Shown: one piece after another, positions 2,211-20,118 of the stretch
How the letters are laid out: each line of letters starts with the position of its first letter
Numbering within the stretch: position 1 is the first letter of the stretch
Virus record (IMG/VR): IMGVR_UViG_3300009610_000106
Coordinates: 1-20,118 of that record
Direction: 5' to 3' (one strand)
Origin: a virus
DNA: 20,118 nucleotides
Program-made: the position numbers and the translations under genes
The notes under the pieces: generated by a model
Databases searched by the model: none
Told to the model about the DNA's origin: nothing
The model's input: the letters and a program-made list of their open reading frames with translations, nothing else

Positions 2211-2353
2211 CAGTGGGTTGTCCAGGCGTCGATGTCGGCGCATGGGCAGTAGTTGGCGCCGTAGTACTGACATTTGGTGTTGGTGCACGGCGGTTCGGGC
2301 GCGGTGACTTTCTGCCACCAACGGCGGAGCCGTCCGGGGCGCTTGGCGCTCAT
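2210..2353 (-). CDS. Cysteine-rich small protein (47 aa)
   Basis: This short gene fills an otherwise unexplained 143-base gap in the leftward operon. ATG 2353 overlaps the nuclease stop by one base (TGATG) and its own TGA overlaps the next ATG by one base in the same way. The product has a basic N-terminus (MSAKRPGRLRRWWQKV) followed by a cysteine cluster: C23, C28, C36 and C38, spaced CX4C-X7-CXC, with aromatic residues between (QYYGANY). Four cysteines at this spacing could bind a zinc ion. The basic segment would suit nucleic acid binding. No family is recognised. The exact fit between its neighbours and the absence of any other reading frame here support it as real. Confidence 0.7.
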   Translation of the reverse strand: MSAKRPGRLRRWWQKVTAPEPPCTNTKCQYYGANYCPCADIDAWTTH

Positions 2354-3528
2354 CAGTGGGGCTCGACCTTCGAGCGGTGGACTCCGGGCTCGCCCCGGGG
2401 GTCCGGCAGGAAGGGCAACGAGAAGTCGGCCTCGACCTTGTCGAGCACGTCGAGCACGGCCAGCACCTGGCCCGGGACCGACAGCCCCTGCTTAGGCGTC
2501 GGTACCCCGGCAGGCCACTTCAAGATCAGGCGCTCTTTGGCCTTCTCATGACGGCCGATCTGCTCGACCCGGATACGCACGTACTCGATGAGGGCCGGGA
2601 CCATCTCCTGGTCGATCTCCACCGTCGCATCGAACTCCTCGATGATCGCATCCACCGGCAGCGGGATCGGGACCCCGTCGTACTCACCGTTCTTCCACTT
2701 CTTGCGCCACTGCTTGACCTCCTGGGCGATCCACGCCCCGTAGACGCCGAGCTCGATCGACACCCACTGCAACTCGCAGCGCCCCTGCCCGACCGGCAGG
2801 TGGACCAGGATCGCCCAGTCCCCGTTGATCGGTGGGGTGGGGAGGCGGCGTTGCGTGGCCAGGTCGTACAGCGTGCCGGTGGCGTACAAGGCCAGTTGGA
2901 TGGCGTAACCGGGCAGCGAGAAGTCGAACTTCTGGCCCGTCTTCAAGTCGCCCAACACCAACTGTCCAGCGGGGATCACACCGCTTGGCGTCGTCAGGTC
3001 CTTGGTCAGGCGGTAGATGCGGTCGGCCGTGCCCGCCGCCCGGAAGTTGTCGTTGACCATCGGGCACTCGAACATCTCCGACACCAGGCCGAAGGTGGCC
3101 AGGCAGTCGCGGTAGGCGTCCAGGTCGGCTTGGAACGGCTCGCCCGGATCGAAGTCGACGTCGGTGGCGTCCTCGGCCCGCACCGTCATGGCGTGCAGGG
3201 CGGTGCCCATGTCAGCGGCCTCGTTGGCGGTGCCCTTGTCGAGGGCCTTGTCGCGCAGGCGGCGCTTCTCCTCCTTGTCCTCGTCCTTGCAGGCCTTGAT
3301 CTCAGCGGCCAGCGACGGTGACGAGGCCACGCCGTTCATCGCCTTGAAGATCCGCCAGTTGGTCAGCGCCTCCTCGTCGTCCAGCGGCTTGCCGTAGGAC
3401 GAGGGACGGCTGTAGCGCTGCCATTTGTCCGGGTGCTCCGGATCCGACACCATCGGGGCGCCGTTGGCACGGCGGTAGTCCAGCTTCCCCTCGTTGGGGT
3501 CGCTCAGGTCATCCAGGTCAACGGCCAT
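2353..3528 (-). CDS. RecB/Cas4-type PD-(D/E)XK nuclease
   Basis: This 391-residue protein has the ordered motifs of the RecB/Cas4-like branch of PD-(D/E)XK nucleases, which cut or resect DNA with divalent metal ions. Motif I is GTALHAM with H112. A Glu-containing strand (FECPMV, E154) is followed by AGTADRI with D169. The DXK signature is LGDLKTG with D194 and K196, and the Q-motif is QLALYA with Q211. Before the core, residues 75-105 are charged and helical. After it, residues 235-262 add strands (WAILVHLPVG) and the tail is helical. In the phage it likely acts in recombination or replication, alongside the resolvase and SSB-like protein. ATG 3528 overlaps the preceding gene by 11 bases. No helicase or cysteine-cluster Fe-S motif is seen. 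Confidence 0.88.
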   Translation of the reverse strand: MAVDLDDLSDPNEGKLDYRRANGAPMVSDPEHPDKWQRYSRPSSYGKPLDDEEALTNWRIFKAMNGVASSPSLAAEIKACKDEDKEEKRRLRDKALDKGTANEAADMGTALHAMTVRAEDATDVDFDPGEPFQADLDAYRDCLATFGLVSEMFECPMVNDNFRAAGTADRIYRLTKDLTTPSGVIPAGQLVLGDLKTGQKFDFSLPGYAIQLALYATGTLYDLATQRRLPTPPINGDWAILVHLPVGQGRCELQWVSIELGVYGAWIAQEVKQWRKKWKNGEYDGVPIPLPVDAIIEEFDATVEIDQEMVPALIEYVRIRVEQIGRHEKAKERLILKWPAGVPTPKQGLSVPGQVLAVLDVLDKVEADFSLPFLPDPRGEPGVHRSKVEPH

Positions 3529-3709
3529 CGGTCAGGTGTCCCATCAGTTCTCGGGCGTAGGCGTCAGCGATCTCACCGATCTTCGGGTCGTTGCACTCCC
3601 CGAAGACCTCGTACAGGATGCGCGCGAGGGTGCGCGTGGTGTCGTCGACGTCGGAGCGCATGATGCGGCTGAGCACAGCCATCCAGGGCACTTCCATCAG
3701 CGCGTTCAC
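3518..3709 (-). CDS. Small helical protein (63 aa)
   Basis: I do not recognise this protein. GTG 3709 overlaps the resolvase stop as GTGA and has GGAAGG about five bases upstream, which supports it as the start. The product looks all-helical: VPWMAVLSRIMRS, DDTTRTLARILYEVFGE, then KIGEIADAYARELMGHL. It has one cysteine and no membrane segment. It might be a small accessory partner to the resolvase or nuclease between which it lies, but this is inferred from position only. Confidence 0.65.
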   Translation of the reverse strand: MNALMEVPWMAVLSRIMRSDVDDTTRTLARILYEVFGECNDPKIGEIADAYARELMGHLTDGR

Positions 3710-4170
3710 GAAGCCTTCCGCAGGTAGTTGAGTTGGTAGGCCCGGGCGATCAGGGCGGCGTCAGCACGCCCGTCGTCCTTGACACGCTTGAAGCTGCCGG
3801 AGTAGGCGGGCCACAACTCAGAGGCCAGCGCCCGTGAGGCGTCCTTGCCCGGACGGCCGAGGATCCCGTTGATCTTCTTCCACTCCTGCGGGCGCAGGCG
3901 GGTCATCGGCAAGCCGAGGGACCCGATGACACCGAGCAGGATGCCCGTGTTCATTCCCAGCGAGAAGGTGGCCTTACAGCCGTTCTTCGGCATCGGCTGG
4001 GTCTGCTCGACGACCACCACATCGGGCTTGATGTGCTTCAAGAACTCATGGACGAGTTGCGCGTCGACCCGCCCGTCCCACACCGGCATGTCGACGATGT
4101 TGATCGGGCCGAGATCACTGAGCACGACCAGGGCCCCGGTCAGGCCGGGGTCGATCCCCATGATCTTCAT
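3706..4170 (-). CDS. RuvC-like Holliday junction resolvase
   Basis: This 154-residue protein is a RuvC-type resolvase of the RNase H fold, about the family's usual size. It would cut Holliday junctions or other branched DNA before packaging. The catalytic acids are visible: D7 in MGIDPGLTGA, E55 in VVVVEQ, and D132, D133 and D137 in KDDGRADAALIA. The Gly/Met-rich central helix (LGMNTGILLGVIGSLG) fits the family. The frame is open to 4347, but the extra N-terminal sequence is a shadow of upstream genes; ATG 4170 directly precedes the first catalytic strand and overlaps the tiny membrane-peptide gene as ATGA. It is one of the first genes of the leftward operon. Confidence 0.92.
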   Translation of the reverse strand: MKIMGIDPGLTGALVVLSDLGPINIVDMPVWDGRVDAQLVHEFLKHIKPDVVVVEQTQPMPKNGCKATFSLGMNTGILLGVIGSLGLPMTRLRPQEWKKINGILGRPGKDASRALASELWPAYSGSFKRVKDDGRADAALIARAYQLNYLRKAS

Positions 4171-4247
4171 GACCGCACCATGTTCACGATCGTCCCGCCG
4201 AGGAAGCAGAGGCTGCCGAGGGCGTACAGGATGTTCGCGAGCGTCAT
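4167..4247 (-). CDS. 26-residue single-pass membrane peptide
   Basis: This very small gene lies exactly between two longer ones. ATG 4247 overlaps the RHH stop (ATGA) and its TGA overlaps the RuvC ATG (ATGA). The peptide begins MTLANILYALGSLCFLGG, continues TIVNMVRS, and is almost entirely hydrophobic apart from one Arg near the C-terminus. That is the pattern of one transmembrane helix with a short basic tail. No known family is recognised. It could be a membrane-acting toxin-like or host-modifying peptide, or serve mainly as a translational coupler between the neighbours. Exact overlap at both ends makes chance less likely. Confidence 0.6.
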   Translation of the reverse strand: MTLANILYALGSLCFLGGTIVNMVRS

Positions 4248-4432
4248 GCGCTGATCTCTTCGGGCTCCTCGACGGACTTCGGCGGTCGGGGCGGGTAGGC
4301 CATCTTGATCGCGTCCATGATCGTGCGGGTGATCGGCGTCTTGGCATCCCGCAGCAGTTGCTCGCGGTACCAGAACGGCATTCGGACCGACACCTGCACG
4401 GGCAGGGTCCGGGGATCTCTGCTGTGGGTCAT
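4244..4432 (-). CDS. Putative ribbon-helix-helix DNA-binding protein
   Basis: This 62-residue protein is the first gene of the leftward operon. Its pattern fits the ribbon-helix-helix (Arc/MetJ) fold: a strand with alternating residues (PVQVSVRMP, about 11-19), a first helix (FWYREQLLRDA, 20-30), a turn, and a second helix (ITRTIMDAIKMAY, 34-46). An acidic, Pro-rich tail follows. Such proteins usually act as dimers on short palindromes and often repress their own promoter. The position beside a palindromic operator suggests that role, but this is inference. ATG 4432 lies six bases from a TAGCAT -10 element, so the message may be leaderless; the only GGGG is too near the start to be a normal ribosome binding site. 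Confidence 0.72.
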   Translation of the reverse strand: MTHSRDPRTLPVQVSVRMPFWYREQLLRDAKTPITRTIMDAIKMAYPPRPPKSVEEPEEISA

Positions 4433-4521: not shown

Positions 4522-4962
4522 GTGGCAGAGGTCCCGATCACGGACTGGCGGAAGCAAGAGTTCCTCGCCTGGCTCTGTACCCCTGAGCCTGATCGGGACC
4601 CTGCCCTCATGAAGGATCTGGCACCCAGGCTCGGTGTCGAGCCCAAGACACTGAGTTCCTGGAAGCGTGATGATGACTTCCTGGCGGAGTGGGAGAAGCT
4701 GTACCGGCGGACCATCGGCAGCCCCGAGAAGATGCGCCAGGTCACCGACGCTCTCCATGAGACAGCCAGGGACCGCACCGACCCTCGTCAGGTCCAGGCC
4801 GCCCGTGCCTACGCCGACATCGTCGATGCCGCCAAGCCGAAGAAGATCGACGTCAACGTCAACCAGACCCAGGCTCGCGACCTGAGCGACGACACGCTGC
4901 TGGCGATCCTCGCTGAGCGGGCGGCGGTCGAACTCGAACAGCGCAAGCCCACCGATGCCTGA
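4522..4962 (+). CDS. terS: Putative terminase small subunit
   Basis: This 146-residue protein opens the rightward operon and precedes TerL by one gene. Residues 8-20 form a first helix, and 29-49 look like a helix-turn-helix (MKDLAPRLGVEPKTLSSWK), followed by the recognition-type phrase DDDFLAEWEKLYRR seen in phage small terminase proteins. Residues 70-110 are helical and would serve oligomerisation. The C-terminus is an acidic helix ending KPTDA. TerS recognises the phage DNA and delivers it to TerL. GTG 4522 was chosen for its position six bases after the -10; no Shine-Dalgarno is seen, which fits a leaderless message. The small terminase call rests on fold pattern and context, as this family is poorly conserved. 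Confidence 0.75.
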   Translation: MAEVPITDWRKQEFLAWLCTPEPDRDPALMKDLAPRLGVEPKTLSSWKRDDDFLAEWEKLYRRTIGSPEKMRQVTDALHETARDRTDPRQVQAARAYADIVDAAKPKKIDVNVNQTQARDLSDDTLLAILAERAAVELEQRKPTDA

Positions 4963-5446
4963 CATCTCGATCGGCTTCCAGCCACGCACCCGACAGCCCG
5001 AGCGCCGGGCGTTCATGGACCTGTTGCGCCGGGACGCAGCCGTTGTCAACGCGATCGACGCCACCAACGCTGCTGTCGCGGTCCATGAAACCCGGCTCGA
5101 TGCCCTCGACGAGATGCCCTGGATCTACGTTGACCAGACCATCGGGGCGCCGCTGTTCACCAACTCATGGGTCAACTTCGACGCCGAGCCCTCCGAGCGC
5201 AACGTCGCCTTCCGCTTGATGCGGGGGTATGTGGAGATGAAGGGCCTGCTGTCGGGCGGCACCGTCAACGCCACCATGTTCACGCTCCCCGTTGGGTACC
5301 GGCCGATCGGCAACCGTCACTTCCCGGTGATCGCTAACAGCCTCTTCGCCAACCTGCGAGTGGGGTCTGACGGGCAGATTCAGATCCCGTCAGCCGGATC
5401 GAACGTCTTCGTTGATCTCGGCCCTGTTCGCTTCGACCTGCCATGA
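4955..5446 (+). CDS. Fibre-like protein between terminase genes
   Basis: This 163-residue protein has a helical N-terminal half (DLLRRDAAVVNAIDATNAAV, about 22-52) likely to form a coiled coil, then a beta-rich domain from 58 to the end. The end domain carries phrases typical of phage tail-fibre or receptor-binding heads: YVEMKGLLSGGTVNATMF, LPVGYRP, then HFPVIAN, ANLRVGSDGQIQI and a final FVDLG strand. It is therefore likely a trimeric fibre, spike or head-decoration protein. Its place between the two terminase genes is unusual, as fibres normally lie with tail genes. It overlaps terS by eight bases and terL by four (ATGA), so it is part of the same translational chain. Whether it is on the tail or capsid cannot be told. 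Confidence 0.78.
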   Translation: MPDISIGFQPRTRQPERRAFMDLLRRDAAVVNAIDATNAAVAVHETRLDALDEMPWIYVDQTIGAPLFTNSWVNFDAEPSERNVAFRLMRGYVEMKGLLSGGTVNATMFTLPVGYRPIGNRHFPVIANSLFANLRVGSDGQIQIPSAGSNVFVDLGPVRFDLP

Positions 5447-7083: not shown

Positions 7084-7416
7084 ATGCCCTATCGTCTCGA
7101 CACGCAGCGTCCGCCCGTGCGCTTCCATCGGCGTCGTAGCTATCGCTACATGAACCGGGGGTACTCCTACCGACCCCACGCCGTGTGGGGGGTCCAGGTC
7201 GCGGACGGCCCCGACCGAGCCAAGGCCGCTCCCGGCAGCATGTACCCGGTCGACCCCGACATCGGCGCCCAAGACGCAGGCAACGCTGCCGAACTGGCAG
7301 CCGAAGGCTTCGTCGCCGCTCCGCTGACCAACTGGACCACTGGCCAGGCGATCACGATCGGCACGTTCAACTTCAACTGGACGGGGGCCGCCTGGGCGGC
7401 CGGGATCCACGCGTGA
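7084..7416 (+). CDS. Hypothetical protein (110 aa)
   Basis: I do not recognise a function. ATG 7084 has a perfect GGAGGT five bases upstream, overlapping the end of terL. The first 30 residues are rich in Arg and Tyr (FHRRRSYRYMNRGYSYR). The middle is Ala/Asp-rich. The C-terminus is a short beta unit (LTNWTTGQAITIG, FNFNWTGAAWAAG), of a kind seen at the end of some phage head-associated proteins; I infer a virion-associated role from that and from position between terminase and portal. Its stop overlaps the next start as GTGA. Confidence 0.75.
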   Translation: MPYRLDTQRPPVRFHRRRSYRYMNRGYSYRPHAVWGVQVADGPDRAKAAPGSMYPVDPDIGAQDAGNAAELAAEGFVAAPLTNWTTGQAITIGTFNFNWTGAAWAAGIHA

Positions 7417-7625
7417 CCTGCGAGACGTGCGGAGTCAAGCCCGCCGAAGAGGGGCGCAAGGAATGCTTCCGTTGCCGCGTCTCCACCATCGGGATCAACT
7501 TCGTGGGTGGTGGCGGCTACGGCCGCAAGACCTTCCACGACCGCACCACCAGCGAGTACATCAACGAGTTCGTACCTAAGAACAACCCCAACATCGCTCC
7601 GGCGGACAGGGGGTGCTGGACCTGA
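7413..7625 (+). CDS. Zinc-ribbon protein (70 aa)
   Basis: The start is GTG 7413, overlapping the previous TGA as GTGA; the longer open frame upstream is a shadow of the preceding gene. The product has two CXXC pairs, C3-X2-C6 and C18-X2-C21, separated by 11 residues, which would bind one zinc ion as a ribbon. The rest is Gly/Tyr/Arg-containing (GGGGYGRKTFHD) and polar, with no further domain. Similar tiny zinc-ribbon proteins occur near the terminase and portal genes of other actinophages, and their role is not known to me. The stop overlaps the portal ATG by one base. Confidence 0.8.
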   Translation: MTCETCGVKPAEEGRKECFRCRVSTIGINFVGGGGYGRKTFHDRTTSEYINEFVPKNNPNIAPADRGCWT

Positions 7626-9484
7626 TGGCTGGCATGACGCAGGAGGCGTACCTACGGTACGTCCGTGGAGAGGTCAGGCGCTCGAAGAAGTGGCGCTCCA
7701 ACGAGGACTACGAGGACGACTGGAAGCGCTTCGTTGACCTCTATCGGGGCAAGCACTACGGAGAAGGCGCCTACGGCGACAAGCTGATCGTCAACCTGAC
7801 CTTCTCCACGATCAACGTGATGGCGCCCTCGGTGGCGGTCAACAACCCTCGCTTCGTGGTCAACGCGCGCCACGACGAGAAGGCCCCACACGCGTCGATC
7901 ACCGAGGAAGTCCTCAACTACATGTGGCGGACCCACCGCTACCAGGACGAGTTCCGCCTCGCCGTCAACGACATGCTGGTCATCGGCCACGGGTGGTGCA
8001 AGGTCGGCTACAAGTTCACCAAGCCACCTGAGGAGAAGAAGGCCGAGCCCAACAGCGGCAGCAACATGCCCGACTCGGCTGCAGAAGTCGGGATCGACGA
8101 CCGTGACCCGGTGGACGGGAACGTCGAGTCGGAGATGTACATCTACGACGATCGGCCGTTCCTCGAACGCATCAGCCCCTACGACATGTTCGTCGATCCC
8201 GACGCCCGCCACCCCAAGGAGATGTGCTGGATCGCTCAGCGGACGTGGCGTCCCATCGCAGACGTCCAGGTCGACAGCCGCTACTCGGCCACCGCCCGCA
8301 AGAACGTCACCGCCAAGTCATGGACCAAGTGGACCGAGGAGGGCCGGGACGACAACCGCCTCGATGAGAGCCCCCGGTCCTTCTGCGAAGTCATCGAGTT
8401 CTACGACATCAAGCGGCGCAAGGTCAGCACCTTCGCCCTCGGTAGCCCTGACGACACCGAGCCGGGGTCGGGCTTCCTGATCAAGCCGAAGGAGATGCCC
8501 TACGCGATGGGGCACCCGTTCGAGATGATCCGCAACTACGAGGTCTGCGACCAGTTCTACCCCATCGGGGACGTCGCCCAGATCGAGTCGCTGCAACTCG
8601 AACTCAACAAGACCCGGGCCCAGATGATGATGCACCGGGCCCGCTTCCAGCGGAAGTGGCTCTACGAGAAGGATGCCTTCCCGGATCGCGACTCCATCGC
8701 TGCGCTGCAGTCCGACGTGGACAACACGATGGTCCCGGTGACCAGCGACGGGGACCTCAACAGGGTCATCATCCCGATGCCTGCTGTCATCACGCCGTCT
8801 GACTTCTACGACCAGTCCGGCCTGATCACCAACGACATCGACCGGGTGTCGGGCGTCTCCGATTACCAGCGGGGCTCCGCCCAGACCGCTGTCAAGCGCA
8901 CCGCCACCGAGGCGGCGATGATCCAAGATGCCGCCAACGCCAGGGCCCAGGACCGCTTGGCCAAGATCGAGGCATCCCTCGCCCGTCTCGGTGAACGAGT
9001 CATCGGCTTGATGCAGCAGTACATGACCGGTGACCAGGTCATCCGCATCGTGACGATGCCCGGGAAGATCTGGCAACATTACGATTCGGACTACATCCAG
9101 GGTCAGTTTGATTACGAAGTGGCTGCTGGTTCCACCGAGCCGATGAACGAAACGTTCCGGCGTCAGTCGGCGTTGCAGCTGGTCGACGCTTCGATGCCGT
9201 TCCTGGAGATGGGCGTGGCCAACCCGGTGACCCTCTACATGCACATCTTGCAGAAGGGCTTCGGGATCAAGAGCACCCAGGCGTTCATCATGGATCCGGG
9301 CGGGGCACCCGAAATGCCTGGTGCGGAGCCCGTCGGGCCGCCTGGTGTCCCGCCCGACATGCTGCAGCAGGGCGCCCCGATGCCGCCTGACGTGCAGATG
9401 CAGGGGCCGCCCGAACAGCCTCCGCCGGAGATCGACGAAGCCATGCTCATGCAGATGATGGGCAGCGGCGGGCCGATGATCTAA
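7625..9484 (+). CDS. Portal protein
   Basis: This 619-residue protein fits a podovirus-type portal: the dodecameric ring at one capsid vertex through which DNA passes. Residues 53-75 (LIVNLTFSTINVMAPSV) are typical of the N-terminal wing, and a long helical segment (VKRTATEAAMIQDAANARAQ) with a preceding loop (ITNDIDRVSGVSDYQRG) is typical of the clip/stem/crown region. The last ~60 residues are rich in Pro and Met (PPGVPPDMLQQGAPMPPD). I start at ATG 7625, which overlaps the previous stop (TGATG). GTG 7613 is an alternative giving four more residues, and a second ATG is three codons on. Position after terL and before the scaffold supports the call. Confidence 0.9.
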   Translation: MAGMTQEAYLRYVRGEVRRSKKWRSNEDYEDDWKRFVDLYRGKHYGEGAYGDKLIVNLTFSTINVMAPSVAVNNPRFVVNARHDEKAPHASITEEVLNYMWRTHRYQDEFRLAVNDMLVIGHGWCKVGYKFTKPPEEKKAEPNSGSNMPDSAAEVGIDDRDPVDGNVESEMYIYDDRPFLERISPYDMFVDPDARHPKEMCWIAQRTWRPIADVQVDSRYSATARKNVTAKSWTKWTEEGRDDNRLDESPRSFCEVIEFYDIKRRKVSTFALGSPDDTEPGSGFLIKPKEMPYAMGHPFEMIRNYEVCDQFYPIGDVAQIESLQLELNKTRAQMMMHRARFQRKWLYEKDAFPDRDSIAALQSDVDNTMVPVTSDGDLNRVIIPMPAVITPSDFYDQSGLITNDIDRVSGVSDYQRGSAQTAVKRTATEAAMIQDAANARAQDRLAKIEASLARLGERVIGLMQQYMTGDQVIRIVTMPGKIWQHYDSDYIQGQFDYEVAAGSTEPMNETFRRQSALQLVDASMPFLEMGVANPVTLYMHILQKGFGIKSTQAFIMDPGGAPEMPGAEPVGPPGVPPDMLQQGAPMPPDVQMQGPPEQPPPEIDEAMLMQMMGSGGPMI

Positions 9485-10412: not shown

Positions 10413-11516
10413 GTGGCACTCGCCTCCCACGTCCCAGCAACATGGGACCAGGTCCTGTCCACGACGTTGCACAACTACCGGAAGACCCTCCGGGACAACG
10501 TCTTCAACAGCCGCCCCCTGCTCAACTTCTTGATGGAGAACGGGCGGGTCCGGACCATTGATGGTGGCTACACCATCGTCGAGCCCCTGCTGCTCGGCGT
10601 CGGTGAAGCCAACTCCTACGGTCCGTGGCAGCAACTCACCGTCACCAACCAGGGCGGCATCTCCGCCGCCCAGTTCGTGTGGCGGCAGATCTACGCAACG
10701 ATCATCATCTCGGGCCTCGAAGAGGCTCAGAACAACGGTCGTGAGCAGATGATCAACCTCGTCGAAGCCAAGGTCAAGCAGGCCGAAGGCACCTTGAAGA
10801 ACATCCTGTCAGCGATGGTCTGGGGTACCCGCGGCGGCGCCGCCTTGGCAACCGACTTCACCGGATTCCCCACGCTCATCGACGCCACGGCGGCGGCGGG
10901 CGGCATCACCCCGGCGGCGGACCCCGCACCTGAGAACCTGTGGCGGTCGCCCACGTGGAACGCCACCACGCAGGCCGGGACCGACGCCAAGGGCGTCGCC
11001 ATCGTCATGCCGAGCACGGCGCCGGTCGCGCCGTATGACGGCACGGAGTTGGAGATGGTGATGCGGCACATGTTCATGCTCGCCAGTGATGGCGGCTCGG
11101 AGTTCCCCAAGGCCCTCTTCGGTGGGCTCGGGTTCTTCGAGGCGTACGAGGCGTCGCTCACCCCGCAGGTGCGCTACACCGACACGTCGAAGGCGAACCT
11201 CGGGTTCTCGAACCTGATGTTCAAGCAGGTCCCGCTCTACTGGGATCCGGACGCCCCGACGGGCACGCTGCTCGGGCTCGACCCCGAGACGATCGGCTTG
11301 ACGATCCACAGCGACCGCAACTTCACGCAGTCGCCGTTCACGTCGAACCTGTCGGGCTCCGTGGCCTCGACGCCGAACGCCAACCCGGGCACCACCCCGG
11401 CGGCCCCGGCGGCGAACGCCATCGACGCCCGGGTCAGCTTCATCACGACCTACGGCAACACCACGGTGCGCGAGCGTCGGCGGAACTTCAAGGTCACCCT
11501 GGCTACCTTCACCTGA
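10413..11516 (+). CDS. Major capsid protein
   Basis: This 367-residue protein is the likely coat protein of the icosahedral head, based on position after the scaffold, length and pattern. The N-terminal part (LHNYRKTLRDNVFNSRPLLN) is a helix of the kind seen in several podovirus coat proteins. It is followed by IDGGYTIVEPLLLG, then YGPWQQL and a long helix (REQMINLVEAKVKQAEGTL). The middle third is Ala/Gly/Pro-rich and a C-terminal strand region (VSFITTYGN) ends with a basic segment (RERRRNFKV). I infer an HK97-type fold but see no diagnostic residue. GTG 10413 has GAAAGG upstream with normal spacing. A hairpin follows the gene. Confidence 0.88.
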   Translation: MALASHVPATWDQVLSTTLHNYRKTLRDNVFNSRPLLNFLMENGRVRTIDGGYTIVEPLLLGVGEANSYGPWQQLTVTNQGGISAAQFVWRQIYATIIISGLEEAQNNGREQMINLVEAKVKQAEGTLKNILSAMVWGTRGGAALATDFTGFPTLIDATAAAGGITPAADPAPENLWRSPTWNATTQAGTDAKGVAIVMPSTAPVAPYDGTELEMVMRHMFMLASDGGSEFPKALFGGLGFFEAYEASLTPQVRYTDTSKANLGFSNLMFKQVPLYWDPDAPTGTLLGLDPETIGLTIHSDRNFTQSPFTSNLSGSVASTPNANPGTTPAAPAANAIDARVSFITTYGNTTVRERRRNFKVTLATFT

Positions 11517-11579: not shown

Positions 11580-11957
11580 ATGACCACAGAGCAGTTCAGC
11601 CACCGCAAGGCGGCCAACGCCGCCCGCCCCGGCGTGGTCCTGGTACACCAGGCTTGGGGCGACCCGTACCACAACACCGGGACGGTCAACAACCCCGGCA
11701 ACAAGGAGGGCATCCAGCGAGCAGGCCTGTTCTCCACGGCTCCCTACCGAGGCCCCGATGATCCCAGTCGGGACCCCACTGCCAGGGCCCCGGGGCGCGA
11801 GAAGCGCTGCAAGGCCAACGACGACACCTGCAAGGCGTGGGCCACCAACAAGTACGACGGCAACTACTGCAACCCACACGGTCGCAAGATGGCGGGCGAA
11901 GCACCCTGGCCGAACGCCAAGGCCCGCTACGCCGACGCGATGGTGAGCGATGGCTGA
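11580..11957 (+). CDS. Zinc-knuckle-like protein (125 aa)
   Basis: This protein has no recognised function. ATG 11580 follows AGGAAGGAGAG at good spacing. Residues 1-70 are polar with short hydrophobic pieces (RPGVVLVHQAWGD) and many Gly/Pro/Asn. Residues 77-101 hold a cysteine/histidine group: C77, C84, C97 and H100, ending PHGRK. This resembles a small phage motif in which three Cys and one His precede a Gly at the end (C-x-A ... C-x-x-H-G). It could bind zinc. Position directly after the major capsid gene suggests a head-associated or assembly role, but that is inference. The stop overlaps the next gene by eight bases. Confidence 0.75.
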   Translation: MTTEQFSHRKAANAARPGVVLVHQAWGDPYHNTGTVNNPGNKEGIQRAGLFSTAPYRGPDDPSRDPTARAPGREKRCKANDDTCKAWATNKYDGNYCNPHGRKMAGEAPWPNAKARYADAMVSDG

Positions 11958-12645
11958 TGTCCAGACCTTGCGGAACTTCGTACGTGCGCAACTGGATGTT
12001 GACGACGAGGAACTCCCGGACGCGATCCTCAACGTCTACCTGCAAGAAGCCTTTGACCGGACTCTGGCAGCCGACAACCGGTGGCCCCGCAACGAGTTCA
12101 CGTGGACGCTGGTCAAGGCCGCTGGGGACGACGCAGCAGATCTGCCGATTGACCTGAACCCGCCGACGATCATGTCGGTGATCCCGGTCGGAGACGACGC
12201 CTACCGCCTCGTCAACATCGACCACGAAGCCGCCGAGGACGCCTTCCCGCCGATGTGGAACTCGGGTGACGGTGGCAGCCCCCTGTACTTCTCGGTGTGG
12301 CAGCAGCGCCTGTTCCTGTGGCCCCGCACGGCGACCGATGTCGCGTACTCCGTGACGCTGCGGGGCTACCGCCAGCCGGTGTGGTCGTCCGTCGCGGGCA
12401 ACATCCCCGACCTCGACGAGCGCTTGCACATCCCGCTGTGCTACTTCGCCATCGCCCTGGCCTACGCCGCCCAGGAGGACGAAGTCCTCGAAGGCGTGTA
12501 CATGGCGCGCTGGGAACGTGACGTCCGCAACCAGTTGCGCACGATCATGGAGCCCGCCCACCACCGCCCGCTGGTGCTGCATGGTGGCGCGCCCATCGGC
12601 GGGATGCCGACCTACATCGTCCAACTCCCGAGTGACGGTCCGTAA
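11950..12645 (+). CDS. Head-tail adaptor (connector) protein
   Basis: This 231-residue protein is likely the first adaptor beneath the portal, like T7 gp11 or P22 gp4 in role. The N-terminal helices (LRNFVRAQL, AILNVYLQEAFDRTLA) are of the kind seen in adaptor proteins, and residues 70-140 contain the beta unit common in short-tailed phage adaptors (YRLVNIDHEAAEDAF, YFSVWQQRLFLWP, YSVTLRGYRQP). The C-terminal helices (LHIPLCYFAIALAYAAQEDE) finish the core and the last 35 residues are an extended tail. Its place between the capsid protein and the nozzle supports the role. The start overlaps the preceding gene by eight bases and the end overlaps the next ATG by one (TAATG). Confidence 0.82.
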   Translation: MADVQTLRNFVRAQLDVDDEELPDAILNVYLQEAFDRTLAADNRWPRNEFTWTLVKAAGDDAADLPIDLNPPTIMSVIPVGDDAYRLVNIDHEAAEDAFPPMWNSGDGGSPLYFSVWQQRLFLWPRTATDVAYSVTLRGYRQPVWSSVAGNIPDLDERLHIPLCYFAIALAYAAQEDEVLEGVYMARWERDVRNQLRTIMEPAHHRPLVLHGGAPIGGMPTYIVQLPSDGP

Positions 12646-14372
12646 TGCCGAACCGCCTGGAGCCGATCAACATCGTCGACTACACGGGCGGGATCAACCT
12701 CCGGCGGTCCCAGTTCCAGCTTGCTGACAACGAGTCGCCCGACCTGCTCAACGTCGACATCGATCCCCGTGGTGGCTTCATGACCCGCAAGGGCTGGGAG
12801 CGCTGGAACGAGAACGACATCGTCGACATGTTCACCACGGCGTGGGAGCCCCGCAACGCCTTCGCCCACGTGTGGGCGGACAACAACGAAGAGATCTACA
12901 TCGTCAACGAGGGCGTCCTCTACTCGGCCAGCGGGGACGGTGTGTTCACGGTGGTCACCGGCATCACGGCGGAGGCTTCCCCCCACGGTGCTGACTTCGC
13001 TGCCTGGGGCGACGACCTCTACATCGTGTCGGGGCGCACCCAGAACGCTCGACGGCGTTCCCTCGATGGTGCCACCGTCTCCCTCAGCCCCTCGACCTGG
13101 TCGGAGATCGACACCCCGACCAACAACACGATGCCTGCGTCGGAGTTCTGCGAGACCCACGCCGGGTACATGTTCGTGGGCTCCACCAGGGAAGCTGCCG
13201 TCGACCACGACGACCGCATCCGCTGGTCCCATCCTGGCGACCCTGACTCCTGGCGGGAGGATGACTTCCTCGACATCACTGAGGGAGGCGGACGGATCAC
13301 CGGGCTGATGTCGTTTGGGGACCATCTGTTGATCTTCAAGACGACCTCGATCCACGCCCTCTACGGTTATGACGAGGGGTCGTGGCAGCGGGTCAAGGTC
13401 TCCGATCACATCGGCTGCCCGGCCATCACCGCCGCTACCCGCTCCGAGTCGGCGGTGTACTTCTACTCGACGTTCGCTCGGGGCGGCATCTACATCTACA
13501 GCGGAGACCGCCCCGAGTACATCTCCGAGCAGGTCAGCGTCGCCTTCGAAGAGATCATCAACTACGAGAACATCTTCGTGTCCTGGGCTGGCCGCCGCCT
13601 GTGGGTGGCGGTGCCGTGGACCAAGGGCATCGGCTCGACGGTCGGACCGAGCGCCATGTTCGTCTACAACAACGACATCGGTAGCGGCGCCTGGGTGATG
13701 TACAACTCGAACTGCGGCTCGGCCAGCACGATCCTCGACGGTGCTGACGTCAACTTCAAGTACCCGCTCGCCGCCTTCTGGTGTACTCACGCTGCGACGA
13801 TGGTGTCGCTCGACCATCTCGAAGATGCCTTCGACATGATCTGGGACCCGCCCTCGCTGTGGGCCATGCCTGACGTGGGCTACATCGTCACCGATGCTGA
13901 CGAAGAGATCGGAGTCACCGGGGGCACGGTCGGCCAGCCGTTCACCACCTACTACCGCACCCGCTGGCTGCACGCTGGGTGGCCGGACCGCAAGAAGTCC
14001 TGGCGTCGCCCCACCTTCATCTGCCGGGAGACCGTGCAGGATGCCGAACTGCTCGTCGAGACGTACCGCGACTATGACGAGACCAACGTCCACCGCACCC
14101 GCACCCTGCGCATCGAGGCAGGAGGCGGTGCCTACTGGACCGAAGAGGGCGCCGCTGACCCCGATGGTCTCGGCTTCGACTGGTCTGAGGACGGCATCGC
14201 GCCCGGTGCTTTCTGGGGCGCCGGGACCGGGGGGACCCGATTGGTCCGTGCGGGCTCGATCGGTCTGGCACGATCAGTGCAGATGAAGGTCAGTCCCTCC
14301 CCCGTGACGGTTGGCAGAAGCTGGGGAGTCGACGGGATCGTGGCCAAGTTCGTCCAGCGGAGGTTCCGGTAG
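12645..14372 (+). CDS. Tail nozzle / tubular hub protein of a short tail
   Basis: This 575-residue protein resembles the propeller-type nozzle or hub proteins of short-tailed phages (T7 gp12 and P22 gp10 in role). The N-terminal phrase is diagnostic: DYTGGINLRRSQFQLADNE followed by SPDLLNVDID and MTRKGWERWN. The body has repeated beta units that fit propeller blades (IYIVNEGVLYS, DLYIVSG, LLIFKTTSIHAL, YFYSTF, IYIYSGDRPEYI, WVAVPW, FVYNNDIGSGAWVMY). The C-terminal part is a separate beta domain (YYRTRWLHAGWPDRKKSWRRP). It would form the tube through which DNA leaves. ATG 12645 overlaps the previous stop by one base. No tape measure gene follows. Confidence 0.85.
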   Translation: MPNRLEPINIVDYTGGINLRRSQFQLADNESPDLLNVDIDPRGGFMTRKGWERWNENDIVDMFTTAWEPRNAFAHVWADNNEEIYIVNEGVLYSASGDGVFTVVTGITAEASPHGADFAAWGDDLYIVSGRTQNARRRSLDGATVSLSPSTWSEIDTPTNNTMPASEFCETHAGYMFVGSTREAAVDHDDRIRWSHPGDPDSWREDDFLDITEGGGRITGLMSFGDHLLIFKTTSIHALYGYDEGSWQRVKVSDHIGCPAITAATRSESAVYFYSTFARGGIYIYSGDRPEYISEQVSVAFEEIINYENIFVSWAGRRLWVAVPWTKGIGSTVGPSAMFVYNNDIGSGAWVMYNSNCGSASTILDGADVNFKYPLAAFWCTHAATMVSLDHLEDAFDMIWDPPSLWAMPDVGYIVTDADEEIGVTGGTVGQPFTTYYRTRWLHAGWPDRKKSWRRPTFICRETVQDAELLVETYRDYDETNVHRTRTLRIEAGGGAYWTEEGAADPDGLGFDWSEDGIAPGAFWGAGTGGTRLVRAGSIGLARSVQMKVSPSPVTVGRSWGVDGIVAKFVQRRFR

Positions 14373-15253
14373 TGGCATCCATTGACCTGCAGTACGACCT
14401 GGCGAACGAGACGCCCGCCAACGCCAGCCCGGTGGAGGCCAACTTCAATCGGGTCGAGCAGCACATCAACACCGAGTTGATCGAACGTGACGGCACGGTG
14501 GCGATGCGCCAGCCGCTGCGCCTGTCCGGTGACCCGGTCAGCGCCCTCGACGCAGCGACCAAGGCGTACGTCGATGCGGTCATGCCGGTCGGGATCATCA
14601 TGCTCTACGGCGGGGCGACGGTCCCTCCGGTCGGGACCTGGCTGCTGTGCGACAACGCTGAGTACAGCCAGGGGGCCTATCCCGCGCTGTTCGCTGTCAT
14701 TGCCCAGACCTACGGCGGTGCGGTCGGGACCTTCCGTACCCCGCCAATCAACCAGGGCCGCATCCCGATCGGGACGGGCGGCACCCCGAGTCTCGCTCTC
14801 GGTGCTACTGGTGGTACGCGTGACGCCGTCAGCGTCGCTCACAGCCACACGGCTTCGTCGGGCGTCGAATCAGCGAGCCACGTCCACGCTGGGATCGACC
14901 ACCTGCACTCGATCGGTGCTGGGAACACGGCGGGCCAGAGCGCTACCCACTTCCACATGGGTCCGAGTGGCTCGCTGATCGGTGTGTCGCCTGGGTCCAA
15001 CGGGCAGTTGAACGCCCTCGGGATCGGCGGTGGCCCCACTGTCGGGTTCCCCGGCGGCACCGAGAACGCTTCGGGCGATCACAGCCATGCGATCGGTGCG
15101 GGCGCGACTGGCCCGGCTGACCGTTCACTGATCACGGGTGGGAACAACGTCAACCACACCCACGCCATCACCGTTAACAGCGATGGGGTCACTGGGGTCG
15201 GGGCCAACATGCCGCCCTACGTGGCCATGACCTACATCATCAGGGCGGCATAG
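14372..15253 (+). CDS. Collar-domain tail fibre protein
   Basis: This 293-residue protein belongs to the phage tail collar/fibre group. Residues 45-70 hold a common fibre hinge (LRLSGDPVSALDAATKAYVD). Residues 71-135 are a Phage_Collar-type domain (MPVGIIMLYGG, WLLCDNAEYS, YPALFAVI, FRTPP, GRIPIGTG). The C-terminal half is Gly/Ser-rich and carries six HxH motifs at 157-159, 170-172, 177-179, 193-195, 237-239 and 262-264, and ends in a short conserved-looking beta segment (NMPPYVAMTYIIRA). The HxH motifs probably bind metal ions along a trimer, as in T4-like fibre tips. GTG 14372 overlaps the previous stop by one base and has GGAGGT seven bases upstream. Receptor binding is inferred. Confidence 0.88.
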   Translation: MASIDLQYDLANETPANASPVEANFNRVEQHINTELIERDGTVAMRQPLRLSGDPVSALDAATKAYVDAVMPVGIIMLYGGATVPPVGTWLLCDNAEYSQGAYPALFAVIAQTYGGAVGTFRTPPINQGRIPIGTGGTPSLALGATGGTRDAVSVAHSHTASSGVESASHVHAGIDHLHSIGAGNTAGQSATHFHMGPSGSLIGVSPGSNGQLNALGIGGGPTVGFPGGTENASGDHSHAIGAGATGPADRSLITGGNNVNHTHAITVNSDGVTGVGANMPPYVAMTYIIRAA

Positions 15254-15709
15254 ATGCCAGTTCCCGGGTACAACAACAACGCTCAGTACGAGTCGCAGGC
15301 AGCGGATGTCCAGTACCGCTACAACACCGACAAGGCGGCCAACGCCTACGGTCGGTTCCTCTCTCAGCAGCGGGGCAGCAGGTCGACCGGGGACCTGCGC
15401 CAGACCTACAATCGAACGCTGCCCAGCTACAAGTCGCAGTTCGGACAGCGGGGCCTGATGGGTCCCGGCGTCAACAGCGGCGTGCAGAAGCGGGCGATGG
15501 GCAACTTCCTCGGGGACTACACCCGGGACTACAGCAGGGCGCAGTCGGACGCCACGCAGGAAGCACAGAACTACGACCTGCAGTCGGCCAACCTCGACGC
15601 CTACCTCAACAACAGCCTGGCTGCGTTGGAGATCGAGAAGCAGCGCGACATCGCCAACTCTGCTCAGGCGCTCGAAGCGCTCAGGGGCATCCTGGGAGGA
15701 GCCTTCTAG
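15254..15709 (+). CDS. Putative internal virion protein (151 aa)
   Basis: I do not recognise a named family. The gene starts at ATG 15254, directly after the preceding TAG. The product is helical and polar, with many Tyr, Gln and Asn. Its middle has YKSQFGQRGLMGPGVNSGVQ, and a long helix (ALEIEKQRDIANSAQALEALR) follows near the end, which suits a coiled-coil or DNA/lipid-associating protein. The composition and place after the fibre and before three large similar proteins suggest a minor virion or ejection protein. It lacks any enzyme motif. Confidence 0.7.
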   Translation: MPVPGYNNNAQYESQAADVQYRYNTDKAANAYGRFLSQQRGSRSTGDLRQTYNRTLPSYKSQFGQRGLMGPGVNSGVQKRAMGNFLGDYTRDYSRAQSDATQEAQNYDLQSANLDAYLNNSLAALEIEKQRDIANSAQALEALRGILGGAF

Positions 15710-16771
15710 ATGGCTGATTCATTCACCGGTGGCGGCGGCACCCGCTACAACACGGCCCCCAGGAAGCGGACACCTGCACCGAGGCCGCGCCCGGCTCCAC
15801 CGCCCGCTGGTAACCAGGGGTGGGGCGACGCCCTGCGTCGGCAGATGGGGGCCAACGCCCTGCAGGGCGCTGGTGTCGAGGTCAACAACGCCAACATCAA
15901 CGCTTGGGATCAGCAGTACCTGCGTGGCAGTCGCCCCGGCGCTGCCCCCATGACGACGCCGCGGCAGCCTGGCCTCTCCGGGAGCAGCAGCGGTAGCCGG
16001 GGCCGCAGCGGTGGCGGCGGCGGTAGCGGTGGTGGTGGCGGCCTGACGCAGGACCAGTTGAACTGGGCCCTGCAGTTGGCGGCATCGAACCGGTCGGGGG
16101 CGCCGCTCGACCTGCCTGACTACGTCCCGCCTGCTCAGCGGGCCTTCGACCCGTCGATGTACGACCAGATGTTGGCATCGCTGGAGCAGGCGCTGGCCAC
16201 TGACACCGGGACGGCGCAGCGCAAGGCGGGCGAGACCACCGATTACCTCAACACCAACTACCGCAATGCCTTCGCTACCCCGAACTACGCCACCCGGGCC
16301 ACCGCTCCCGGTGACAGCCAGGCGCAGATGGCACAGTTGATGCGATCCCAGGGTGTCGATCCGTCGATCATGGCGGCCGAGCAGGGCCAGGCCGCTGGCG
16401 CCGATCAGGCGTTCTCGAACGTGTGGTCGCTGCTCGCTGGCAACGAGGACATGGCCCAGGCCAACCGTCTCCGCAACGTCCAGACCGGGCTGACCGACAC
16501 CCTCGGCAACATCGGCATCGCTGGCCTGCAGGGGCGTACCGGGATCGGCATGCAGCGGGGCCGGGCTCAGCAGGAGTACAACACCCGCAGCGACGAGTGG
16601 GCTCGCCAGGACGCCATGACGCAGGCGCAGACGGCACAGCAGGAGGCGATGACCAACTGGCAGGCCCAGCAGGGATCGAGGCAGTCGATCATCGATGCCC
16701 TGCTGGCTCTGTTCCCGAACATGGCGGGGTCCGGGCTGCAACTCCCTGACCTGGCATCATTGGGGCTGTAA
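15710..16771 (+). CDS. Putative internal virion protein with Gly-Ser linker (353 aa)
   Basis: This protein has three parts. Residues 1-60 are basic and Pro-rich (RKRTPAPRPRPAPPP), then a short helical piece. Residues 88-111 are a natural Gly/Ser linker (SGSSSGSRGRSGGGGGSGGG). Residues 112-353 are a long, mostly helical Gln/Ala-rich region (MAQLMRSQGVDPSIMAAEQG, DAMTQAQTAQQEAMTNWQAQ) that could form coiled coils, with a hydrophobic end (IIDALLALFPNMAG). The pattern is that of a capsid core or ejection protein that travels through the tail, but no catalytic motif is visible. ATG 15710 directly follows the previous stop and has GGGAGGA nine bases upstream. It is a hypothetical protein by sequence alone. 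Confidence 0.75.
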   Translation: MADSFTGGGGTRYNTAPRKRTPAPRPRPAPPPAGNQGWGDALRRQMGANALQGAGVEVNNANINAWDQQYLRGSRPGAAPMTTPRQPGLSGSSSGSRGRSGGGGGSGGGGGLTQDQLNWALQLAASNRSGAPLDLPDYVPPAQRAFDPSMYDQMLASLEQALATDTGTAQRKAGETTDYLNTNYRNAFATPNYATRATAPGDSQAQMAQLMRSQGVDPSIMAAEQGQAAGADQAFSNVWSLLAGNEDMAQANRLRNVQTGLTDTLGNIGIAGLQGRTGIGMQRGRAQQEYNTRSDEWARQDAMTQAQTAQQEAMTNWQAQQGSRQSIIDALLALFPNMAGSGLQLPDLASLGL

Positions 16772-18171
16772 TGGATGACGAAGAGTTCCAAGCCTGGTGG
16801 GCGTCGCTGAGCCCGCAGGAGCAGGATCAGGTCCTCTACTCGGTCGAGATGCAGTCGATCAACCAGTTGCCTGGCTCGTTCAATCAGATGCAGCCCGAGA
16901 TCGGACCGGAGCAGTATGACCTGCTCGGCTTCGGTGGCGGCCTGCCCCAGGAGATCGACAAGTACGGACAGCAGTTGCCGTGGGGCATGGACCAGGAGGC
17001 CCAGGCCACCAGCCTGCAGCGCAACCGTAACTCGATGCTCGTCGACAACGTCACCGCGGCCCTGTCCGGGCCCGGGTCCTACGACATGGGGGCCTTCCAG
17101 GACAAGGTCACCATGCCGGACGAAGTCCTCGACCAGCCTGGCTTCCGCACCGCCAAGACCTACGCCAGCATGGCTGGCGGCTACGAGTCGTTCATCGCTC
17201 AGATGATGCTCAACGGCATGTCGCCCTCGCAGGCGGTGGCTGAGATGTGGGCGTTCCTCGACGAGCCCGAGTCGGACCAGGTCGATCCCGAGTCGTCAGC
17301 CATGCGGGAGGCGCTGCGAGGATCGCTGCCCACCGCCCGCGGCGAACCCAGCCTGATGCCCCCTGGTAGCGGCGTCAAAGGACGGGAGAGCCGGGGCATG
17401 TTCGACGAGGTCGCCGTCAACAACTTCGCTGGGGACCTGTTCAAGCAGTTGGTGAGCGACCCCGAGTTGGGCACCGGCTGGACCGACCCACAGACGGGGG
17501 TCACCTACACCAAGCCGCCCGAGACGGAGCGCTCCGAGGCGGCGTCGTGGTACGACCAGCGTGGCTTGCCCACCCCCGACGAGAGCTACATGGACTTGGA
17601 GTACCTGCAGGGCCTGGGGTTCGGGACCGACGAGGCGACGGCACGGGGCCGGGCCGAGGGCAAGGCCCGGGCCGAAACGAACTACGACACGGCGATCGGT
17701 GGCGCCAACAAGGCGGCCGGGACCCAGCGCACCCTGGAAGCTGGGTTCGCTAACCGGGGGCCGAACGCTCCGCTGCCGCAGGTGTCGGACCACCCGGGAG
17801 CTCAGCGCATCGTCGGGGAGTCCCGGCAGTACCCGCTGGTGCAGCGCAACACCGCTACCGGTGGGGTCGGCCTGGCCGCTGGTCAGGGTGCCCAGCCGAA
17901 CCTGCTCAACTACCTGTTGCGAGGCGAGCGGCGTGGCAGCCCGGCTGACCTGACGCAGGCACGGGGCAACACTCAGCGGGCCAAGCAGGGGCGCAACCAG
18001 GCGCTGCAGGCTCAGATCGCTGAGAAGGAGCGGGTGATCCCCCAAGAAGTCCAGTCGGCCGCTGCCCTCGGCCAGGCCACTGCGTTGACCCGTTCCGGGC
18101 GCAACCCGTTGAACGACGCCCTCATGCAGCGGCTGCTTGGCTCCAGGGCGCAAGGCCTCTATCGGCGGTAG
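16771..18171 (+). CDS. Putative internal virion protein (466 aa)
   Basis: This protein starts at ATG 16771, overlapping the previous stop by one base (TAATG). The N-terminal 60 residues are acidic and Gln-rich (DDEEFQAWWASLSPQEQDQV). Residues 80-170 are mixed helical (TAKTYASMAGGYESFIAQMM, AVAEMWAFLDEPES). The middle holds many Pro/Gly-rich loops (LPTARGEPSLMPPGSGVKG). The C-terminal 150 residues are Arg/Ala/Gln-rich and likely helical (ARGRAEGKARAETNYDTAIG, RAKQGRNQALQAQIAEKERV), ending in basic residues. No transglycosylase, protease or membrane motif is seen. I infer an internal or ejection role from its neighbours and composition. Confidence 0.72.
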   Translation: MDDEEFQAWWASLSPQEQDQVLYSVEMQSINQLPGSFNQMQPEIGPEQYDLLGFGGGLPQEIDKYGQQLPWGMDQEAQATSLQRNRNSMLVDNVTAALSGPGSYDMGAFQDKVTMPDEVLDQPGFRTAKTYASMAGGYESFIAQMMLNGMSPSQAVAEMWAFLDEPESDQVDPESSAMREALRGSLPTARGEPSLMPPGSGVKGRESRGMFDEVAVNNFAGDLFKQLVSDPELGTGWTDPQTGVTYTKPPETERSEAASWYDQRGLPTPDESYMDLEYLQGLGFGTDEATARGRAEGKARAETNYDTAIGGANKAAGTQRTLEAGFANRGPNAPLPQVSDHPGAQRIVGESRQYPLVQRNTATGGVGLAAGQGAQPNLLNYLLRGERRGSPADLTQARGNTQRAKQGRNQALQAQIAEKERVIPQEVQSAAALGQATALTRSGRNPLNDALMQRLLGSRAQGLYRR

Positions 18172-18174
18172 TTG

Positions 18175-20118
18175 ATGGCATCACCCCTCGCCAACGCCCA
18201 GCGTTCGGGTGGCCTCGTCTACATGCCACCTGCTCGACCTGCCCCGACGCGCCGTACGAACGCCGCACCCCCTCGGCGTCGTTCCGCGTCCCCACCGTCG
18301 GGGCAGGTCGACTGGTTGAAGGTCCGCCAGGCTTACGCCTCCACGCCGGAGGCACAGCAGAAGCGGGCCGAAGAGGAACAGGATCAGCAGGGCGGCTTCT
18401 GGAACTCGGACCTGGGCAGAGGGCTCGGCATCGTGCTGGGCAACCCGGTCAGCAAGGCTGCCCTGTCCCCGCTGTCAGCGTTCGCCCTGCCCGGCAGGGC
18501 CGTGGTCGCTGGCATCGAAGAGGGCGTCAAGGCGCTGCCCGAAGACTGGGAGCGCAAGTTGGAGATGCTGACGCGCCAGACGCCTGGCGCGATCAACGCC
18601 ATCGACGAGGACCGCAACGAAGGGCGGTCCGTGATGGACCGCGTTATGGATCCCACCTACGGGTTCGGGTCCACCTTGCAGGAGACCGACAACAAGTGGG
18701 CCAACCGCGCCGTCGGCTTGACCGGCGACATCGTGTTCGACCCGCTGACCTACATCGGAGGGGCTGGTAATCGTGCTCTCATGGCTAGTGCTCCCCGTGC
18801 TGCGGCTGGCCGTGAGGCTGCTGGACTCGCTGAGCGTCTTGCTCCACTGGCTGGCCAAGGTGGCTACGCCGGTGCCGCCCGTCAGGGCATCGAACGTCAG
18901 CTTGCTGAGGCCCAGGCCAAGGTTGCTCGGCTGCCCACGCTCGAAACCCGCGTCCCGACAGGCCGTGCGGCGCGCGCGGAGTTCCTATCCCGGCTGTCGC
19001 TGACCGACCCGGAGGCGCTGGCCGCCCTCGCCCCTGACATCGCACGGGCTGGCGAGCGTGGCCTCAACGTCGCCAGCCCGGCGCTGCGTGAAGCTACCGG
19101 CCTGCAGGAGCCCGCCTTCCGCCTGTTCGATGCCCCGATCCCTGGCACCCGCAAGCTCGCTCAGGGCATCGCTGGGGTCACCGGGCTGGGGCGTACCGGG
19201 CTGAACAAGATCCCCGGCGCCGACGTCCTGGCCCGCGGGCCCAAGGGCCTCGAAGACGCGATGGCCACCCTGACCAGGGGCCAGCAGCAGATGGACGTGC
19301 CGCGGGCCGCGGCGCAGGTGCAACTCGCCAACCTGGCGCGTCAGGGCGAGGGGACCGTGCGGTCGATGGGCCGCGGCATGATGCGGAACTTCTTCAACGA
19401 GAACGTCAAGGGCAAGTCGCGGGAGTCGGTGGACGAACTGGTCAAGGCGGCCGAAGCCACCGCCACGAAGAACCCGGTCAACGATCTGTTCGCTCAGTTG
19501 AAGGATCTCTTCGAGCAGGTCACCGGCACGAAGCTGACCGCTGTGCTGCCCGGCGAGGTCTACGTCCCGCACATGCTGACCCCGTCGTTCCGGCGCCTGC
19601 TCAACACCAAGGGCGACGCCGATGAGGCGGTGCGGCAGTTCAAGAAGGAAGCAGGCATCGTCACCGATGACCTGCTGGAGTCGTCCAGCTTCCTGGAGCG
19701 CGCCCGCAAGCTGCGCCCGAACCCCAACGGATCCCCGCGTACGATCAAGATCGCAGGCCGGGAGATCATCATCTCGACCGGGACGCTCGATGAGTTGAAC
19801 CGGGAGTTGACCAAGGTCTTCCCTGGCTTCAAGGGGAAGTTCTACGAGCAGGACCCGCTGCGGATGGCTGAGTCGTACGTCGACTCGATCGCTCGCCAGG
19901 CTGGCCGGGACGTGGCGACCCGGCGCTTCGCTGACTCCGCCAACAACATGGTGCAGCGAGTCGAGGGCCCGCTGGCTCAGGCGCTGGATGAGCGCAACCG
20001 GGTGCTGCGGACCCAGGGTGCCCACGTCAACACAGCGATGGCGGGCCCCAAGTACACGCCGGGGCAAGCAGCGCCCAAGATCGCTCCGGTCGAGGAACTG
20101 CCTGACGAGGTCGCGGGC
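18175..20118 (+). CDS. Large internal virion/ejection protein, 3' end beyond window
   Basis: This frame is open from ATG 18175 to the last base: 648 complete codons with no stop. It begins three bases after the previous stop. Residues 1-60 are basic and Pro-rich. A segment GLTGDIVFDPLTYIGGAG (D185 to about 195) resembles a phrase found in very large phage structural proteins (GD-I-x-x-DPLTY). Later parts are helical and charged, with YVPHMLTPSFRR at 463-474 resembling a Y-x-P-H-x-L-T motif of phage minor capsid or internal proteins. No catalytic domain is visible in this part. Size, position and helix-rich content suit a large ejection protein in a short-tailed phage. A C-terminal enzyme domain could lie past the edge. 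Confidence 0.85.
   Translation, partial: MASPLANAQRSGGLVYMPPARPAPTRRTNAAPPRRRSASPPSGQVDWLKVRQAYASTPEAQQKRAEEEQDQQGGFWNSDLGRGLGIVLGNPVSKAALSPLSAFALPGRAVVAGIEEGVKALPEDWERKLEMLTRQTPGAINAIDEDRNEGRSVMDRVMDPTYGFGSTLQETDNKWANRAVGLTGDIVFDPLTYIGGAGNRALMASAPRAAAGREAAGLAERLAPLAGQGGYAGAARQGIERQLAEAQAKVARLPTLETRVPTGRAARAEFLSRLSLTDPEALAALAPDIARAGERGLNVASPALREATGLQEPAFRLFDAPIPGTRKLAQGIAGVTGLGRTGLNKIPGADVLARGPKGLEDAMATLTRGQQQMDVPRAAAQVQLANLARQGEGTVRSMGRGMMRNFFNENVKGKSRESVDELVKAAEATATKNPVNDLFAQLKDLFEQVTGTKLTAVLPGEVYVPHMLTPSFRRLLNTKGDADEAVRQFKKEAGIVTDDLLESSSFLERARKLRPNPNGSPRTIKIAGREIIISTGTLDELNRELTKVFPGFKGKFYEQDPLRMAESYVDSIARQAGRDVATRRFADSANNMVQRVEGPLAQALDERNRVLRTQGAHVNTAMAGPKYTPGQAAPKIAPVEELPDEVAG

Follow-up and report, generated by a model that had tools for sequence, protein, structure and literature searches.

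We analysed a window that comprises the whole of the IMG/VR record IMGVR_UViG_3300009610_000106, a linear fragment of 20,118 bases from a soil phage lineage that is unclassified and probably faces a thick, Gram-positive-type wall. From the adaptor gene to the end of the record, the DNA very probably codes for the tail and the ejection proteins of a short-tailed phage. Four consecutive genes would encode the ejection proteins, here called A, B, C and D, and D belongs to the family of gp26 of the cyanophage A-4L. Systems of this kind are already known; the variant features are the lineage itself, a D that is unusual in its length and its division into parts, and a phage that is likely actinobacterial. 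In a megablast comparison with 50,697 named phage records, the window had no match.

The plus-strand genes are arranged in the order small terminase, fibre-tip-like gene, large terminase, a gene of 110 residues, portal, scaffold (presumably, from its position), capsid, a gene of 125 residues, adaptor, nozzle, collar fibre, A, B, C and D (Table 1). As in the clusters of podoviral ejection proteins, the block stands directly behind the adaptor and nozzle (the tail fibre gene apart), gene sizes rise along it and the last gene is the largest. Relatives were collected by a capsid search, which gave 45 IMG/VR loci, many of them on short contigs. Among these the adaptor has homologues in 40, A in 24, B in 22, C in 18 and D in 15. 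When a looser cut-off was applied, 38 loci contained at least two of the seven genes from adaptor to D; the order and the strand were kept in all 38, and 16 of them had the full set. Since the homologues keep order and strand, we regard the open reading frames (ORFs) of A, B, C and D as real genes. The portal and the adaptor are of the SU10/P22 type, i.e. PF23899, PF16510 and PF24175 all scored above their cut-offs, and the named phages that are distantly homologous in the capsid are of the P22/Mx8 type. Together with the homology of the last gene to gp26 of the podovirus A-4L, this supports the short-tail plan proposed in the original prediction.

Protein D is cut by the end of the record. 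Its reading frame opens with a TTG that would give 649 residues in the window, followed directly by an ATG at 18175 that would give 648; the aligned starts of the relatives agree with the ATG, which is therefore the more likely start. In order to see the complete protein, D and the DNA downstream of it were extracted from 13 relatives, and a search with the C-terminal domain gave 37 loci, some of them from records already counted. Closed ORFs for D numbered 23, a few of them near-identical copies; 22 are 1511-2537 residues long and the remaining one, from the record L093 (L-numbers are our labels for loci), has 337. Eight further ORFs that are open at the 5' end reach up to 3163 residues. Nine full-length proteins could be divided into an N-domain of 652-709 residues, a middle of 479-1270 and a C-domain of 539-575. 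Conservation is highest in the C-domain and is also seen in the N-domain; the middle is variable and appears rich in alanine, glutamate and arginine. We note that in L056 and L093, which belong to one IMG/VR record, D is apparently split across several frames, through either sequencing error or decay.

By profile comparison, D represents in this lineage a family of giant proteins with a conserved C-terminus, to which A-4L gp26 also belongs, and it is the only one of the four proteins for which a relation to a podovirus internal protein was found. The family profile was built from six cyanophage gp26 proteins. The D C-domain aligned to it with an hhalign probability of 97.2 (E 3e-11, 348 columns) and the N-domain with a probability of 74 (E 2.8e-5), the two matches being collinear. 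When the single A-4L gp26 sequence was used in place of the family, both comparisons gave a weak link, with probabilities of 1.5 and 31.7. Control comparisons with the nozzle alignment, A-4L gp27 and A-4L gp28 gave probabilities of at most 0.3. In PDB profile searches the D profile found chance-like matches (designed barrels) apart from 9k3a_A, a 'Tail protein' of 1114 residues that matched the N-domain with E 0.02; from its equal length we presume this to be A-4L gp26. Nothing usable was found in the PDB for the C-domain, and a genome scan with the C-domain yielded 28 candidate stretches, none of which was confirmed. The AlphaFold models have mean predicted local distance difference test (pLDDT) scores of 69.7 for the N-domain and 72.7 for the C-domain. 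In a VIA-align comparison of the N-domain, most rows fall on a single region of long helices (residues 196-261). We regard 9vvp_W in row 14, 'Core proteins of the bacteriophage E1004' (Z 5.4, root mean square deviation 8.0, 185 aligned residues), as a lead only, and a paper search on this phage found nothing fitting.

Six of ten D C-domains matched phrog_19395 (best E 7.4e-7), which is labelled 'tail fiber protein; host specificity'. We rejected this label as a function for D because the records of cyanophage gp26, whose gene lies in an internal-protein block, bear identical wording. The fibre label seems to be carried by a family of internal-block proteins of cyanophages.

The predicted fold of the C-domain also resembles phage polyvalent proteins that carry large polyvalent protein associated domains (LPD). 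Foldseek found 20 viral models at E<=0.001, A-4L gp26 among them; nine of the 20 are named for such domains, one of these as LPD38. The match to an LPD-named protein had E 3.1e-22, those to LPD38-named proteins E 5.3e-4 and 3.7e-3. UniProt A0A6J5RQM5 tops the list, and a part of the same protein is matched by the N-domain model. An assignment of D to LPD38 (PF18857) from its motif was not confirmed, as Pfam scans of the D proteins gave no LPD38 match. These fold matches could suggest that D is mainly a carrier of injected effectors, a polyvalent protein sensu Iyer et al. 2017 that enters the cell with the DNA and has anti-defence functions in its variable middle, while A to C form the channel. 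Fold matches to proteins named for ART, RelA/SpoT, zeta toxin, helicase and methylase domains favour such a role, as does the wide length range of the middle among the nine relatives; a parallel is found in gp69 of the Bcep22-like podovirus JC1, which reportedly has LPD38 far C-terminal and a lytic-transglycosylase-like N-terminus (PMC9144972). We nevertheless consider this role rather unlikely: no enzymatic family recurs, i.e. the 23 D proteins gave six Pfam families, each in one protein, with nothing consistent among them; the several disparate enzymatic domains in one chain that are typical of LPD38 polyvalent proteins were not found in D; and the composition of the middle looks unlike that of an enzyme.

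The proteins A, B and C precede D. Protein A is the most conserved of the three, and it has no match in Pfam or in the PDB. In protein B, 22 of 24 aligned sequences, that of the window included, have a 15-residue block with at least nine glycines; its surroundings are variable, and the block is likely to be a flexible hinge. PDB profile searches with A, B and C gave chance-like matches only; B, for instance, found the glycine linkers of single-chain variable fragment (scFv) constructs. The original prediction described four helical, Gln/Ala-rich proteins of 151, 353, 466 and at least 648 residues within 11950-18171. The sizes and coordinates are borne out, the last size corresponding to the ATG start of D; the interval ends at 18171 and thus does not include D. 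Alanine plus glutamine amount to 22.5% in A, 24.9% in B, 20.0% in C and 19.1% in D, as compared to 10.1-20.9% in eleven other measured genes. Glutamine makes up 9.0-10.2% of A, B and C and 4.8% of D, so that the composition holds for A, B and C, and D is rich in alanine only. The helical character is supported by a structure model for the N-domain of D only; B also includes the glycine block.

The gene order and the homology of D fit the ejection plan of T7 and SU10. According to published accounts, the internal proteins of both phages are the first to exit the head and prolong the tail to form a channel, and transglycosylase activity is present in SU10 gp20 and T7 gp16 (PMC9509320, PMC11784390, PMC9863714, PMC8954989); T7/P22-type ejection operons with a matching gene layout are described (PMC8954989), and in P22/Mx8-type phages the genes for internal virion proteins are placed to the right of those for the tube (PMC10386132). 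By analogy we infer a virion location, ejection and channel formation for A-D. The adaptor and nozzle would build a stubby tail decorated by the collar fibre. A, B, C and D would most likely be ejection proteins, carried inside the head of the virion and leaving it ahead of the DNA or together with it. As in T7, P22 and SU10, A to C may then extend the tail conduit, and D, as its long distal part, may pass through the envelope.

Among the known systems, A-4L (Saffermanviridae) shares the order terminase, portal, scaffold, capsid and tail tubular A and B followed by internal proteins, and its gp26, the homologue of D, is the last large protein there: three large proteins are encoded behind the tail tubular genes, and gp26 closes the row. 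It differs in that gp26 has 1114 residues, as opposed to 1511-2537 for D, the other two large proteins (1058 and 1717 residues) are without similarity to the D C-domain, and the host is a cyanobacterium. Podoviridae sp. ct52p938 (MW202803.1, Manatee Spring) is the only named record that we found with relatives of the nozzle, A and D, in identical order, and the only one matched by the D of a full-length relative; its D has 1312 residues with 24% identity in the C-domain, and its nozzle relative is annotated as 'phage stabilization protein'. Kuravirus SU10 shares the adaptor and portal families and holds a set of ejection proteins in its head; this set has five members, with the transglycosylase activity in gp20 (PMC9509320), whereas no such domain was found in the A-D proteins scanned. 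The P22/Mx8-type podoviruses Mx8, 45A6, BUCT555 and ppBjS10J-1 show distant capsid homology and a similar annotated order of late genes. BUCT555 has a lytic transglycosylase protein inside the block, and none was found in the window lineage; the Ruegeria phage 45A6 has a single ORF of 11.7 kb near that place of its late region (L064:6147-17885). LPD38 polyvalent proteins may share the fold of the C-domain; in the D proteins scanned, neither the Pfam domain nor recurring enzymatic domains were found.

The prediction also noted the absence of a known lytic motif in a phage of a thick-walled, high-GC host. By Pfam, no peptidoglycan hydrolase domain was found in the 23 D proteins (for the window, the first 649 residues) and no lytic domain in 21 C proteins or in A and B of the window, the only A and B scanned, so that the claim holds for the full-length D of the relatives and for the C family. 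The host is probably an actinobacterium, judging from gene similarities. The Cas4-like exonuclease of the window matched 646 phage records, 645 of which carry actinobacterial host names and one the name 'Dulem', and this supports the thick-walled host indirectly. Endolysins of the relatives agree, with 77 of 77 matches (L079) and 86 of 87 (L050) to actinobacteriophage records. Since a T7 lysozyme control in the same collection matched mainly phages of Gram-negative hosts, the excess is not merely a result of the make-up of the collection. The capsid profile was found in 5/395 genomes of the class of an Acidimicrobiales metagenome-assembled genome (MAG) and in 2/395 of the class of a Flavobacteriales MAG, which is too weak to name a host. 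PMC8954989 presents ejection proteins as common in podoviruses of Gram-negative hosts, lists mycobacteria as well, and describes phi29-like phages of Gram-positive hosts as without them; in T7 and SU10 the ejection set includes a peptidoglycan hydrolase domain, which is not universal and is not conserved in P22. It is conceivable, although less likely than not, that this lineage uses a podoviral ejectosome, whose giant distal protein has 1.5-2.5 thousand residues, to pass an actinobacterial wall instead of the periplasm of a Gram-negative cell, the peptidoglycan being opened either by an unrecognised catalytic domain of A-D or non-enzymatically.

Several points weigh against the reading given here. 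The lineage is known to us from sequence and models only, and the C-domain of the record's own D is not covered because the record ends inside the gene. The link of the N-domain to the gp26 family is weaker than that of the C-domain. LPD-type C-domains also occur in proteins of myovirus and siphovirus contigs, so the domain in itself is no proof of a short tail. None of A, B and C resembles a solved ejection protein, and hence it is their position that gives them this role. Finally, the named phages related in the capsid infect Myxococcus, Ruegeria, Bradyrhizobium and Stenotrophomonas, among others, and the terminase matches mostly phages of Gram-negative hosts. The last two points, and a capsid match with 54% identity in a contig of the Flavobacteriales MAG, would agree with a Gram-negative host, an ordinary trans-periplasmic ejectosome and acquired genes of actinobacterial appearance. 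In view of the exonuclease and endolysin matches, the latter unlike those of the T7 lysozyme control, we find such a host improbable.

The region behind D bears on the tail type. The original prediction had named tail tube and tape measure genes past D as evidence of a long tail; none was recognised when downstream ORFs of a few relatives were scanned, and no tail tube or assembly chaperone gene was seen among the scanned genes of the window, which ends in D. All four endolysins found behind D in the relatives scanned have an Amidase_2 domain, and MW202803 has a VanY-type peptidase at this place. Also behind D, L049 and L086 have proteins that match fibre J or minor tail families, L090 has a tail fibre and L089 a small virion structural protein, and there are large proteins without a match. 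That the module belongs to a long-tailed phage with a tape-measure-like D, as the length of D, its helical N-domain model, its alanine-rich middle and the fibre J and minor tail matches might suggest, is highly improbable given the SU10-type adaptor and portal, the nozzle, the homology of D to a podovirus protein and the fact that the ORFs scanned included no recognised family of tubes, chaperones or tape measures.

Searches of the open-licence literature on LPD38, on podoviral ejection proteins of Gram-positive or actinobacterial phages and on the core proteins of A-4L showed no description of this lineage among the matches listed. A full ejection cluster in a lineage whose other genes point to actinobacteria would make it possible to ask by what route a short tail gains access to the cytoplasm when the wall is thick. 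Furthermore, giant LPD-type phage proteins gain a place in the podoviral virion block, and their role is testable in the cultured cyanophage A-4L, which has a homologue.

Table 1. Features of the window discussed in the text, with the similarity or alignment data for each.
Feature	Position	Strand	Data
Cas4-like exonuclease	2353..3528	-	phrog_466 E 1.6e-55; host clue
Portal	7613..9484	+	SU10_portal PF23899 E 1.1e-19; P22_portal E 2e-16
Major capsid protein	10413..11516	+	phrog_9953 E 2.2e-46; used to find the 45 IMG/VR relatives
Adaptor (head-tail connector), 231 residues	11950..12645	+	SU10_adaptor PF24175 E 1.2e-12, 49.1 bits (cut-off 27)
Nozzle (tail tip tube protein), 575 residues	12645..14372	+	phrog_3287 E 1.9e-14; phrog_511 E 1.3e-7
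Collar-type tail fibre, 293 residues	14372..15253	+	Collar PF07484 E 1e-11; phrog_9116 and others
Protein A, 151 residues	15254..15709	+	23-68% identity to the window protein across a family of 24 rows
Protein B, 353 residues	15710..16771	+	alignment: Pro-rich start, glycine block at about residues 98-112, conserved C-terminal part
Protein C, 466 residues	16771..18171	+	518-705 residues in relatives (alignment, lengths)
Protein D, first 649 residues (N-domain)	18172..20118	+	cut by record end; 1511-2537 residues in relatives

The nozzle had no PDB match in a profile search, and single-sequence PDB searches with the nozzle and the adaptor gave chance-like matches only. The fibre-tip-like gene between the two terminase genes (4955-5446, plus strand) encodes a fibre-tip or minor-tail-like protein (phrog_3285, phrog_5207). 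The 110-residue gene between the large terminase and the portal (7084-7416) is present in 24 of the 45 relatives and is without a Pfam match. On the minus strand, 954-4347 holds an HNH endonuclease, a conserved protein of phrog_1911, the Cas4-like exonuclease and a Holliday junction resolvase. In one relative, a collagen-repeat protein (PF01391; L084:9610-10161) adjoins the endolysin gene.

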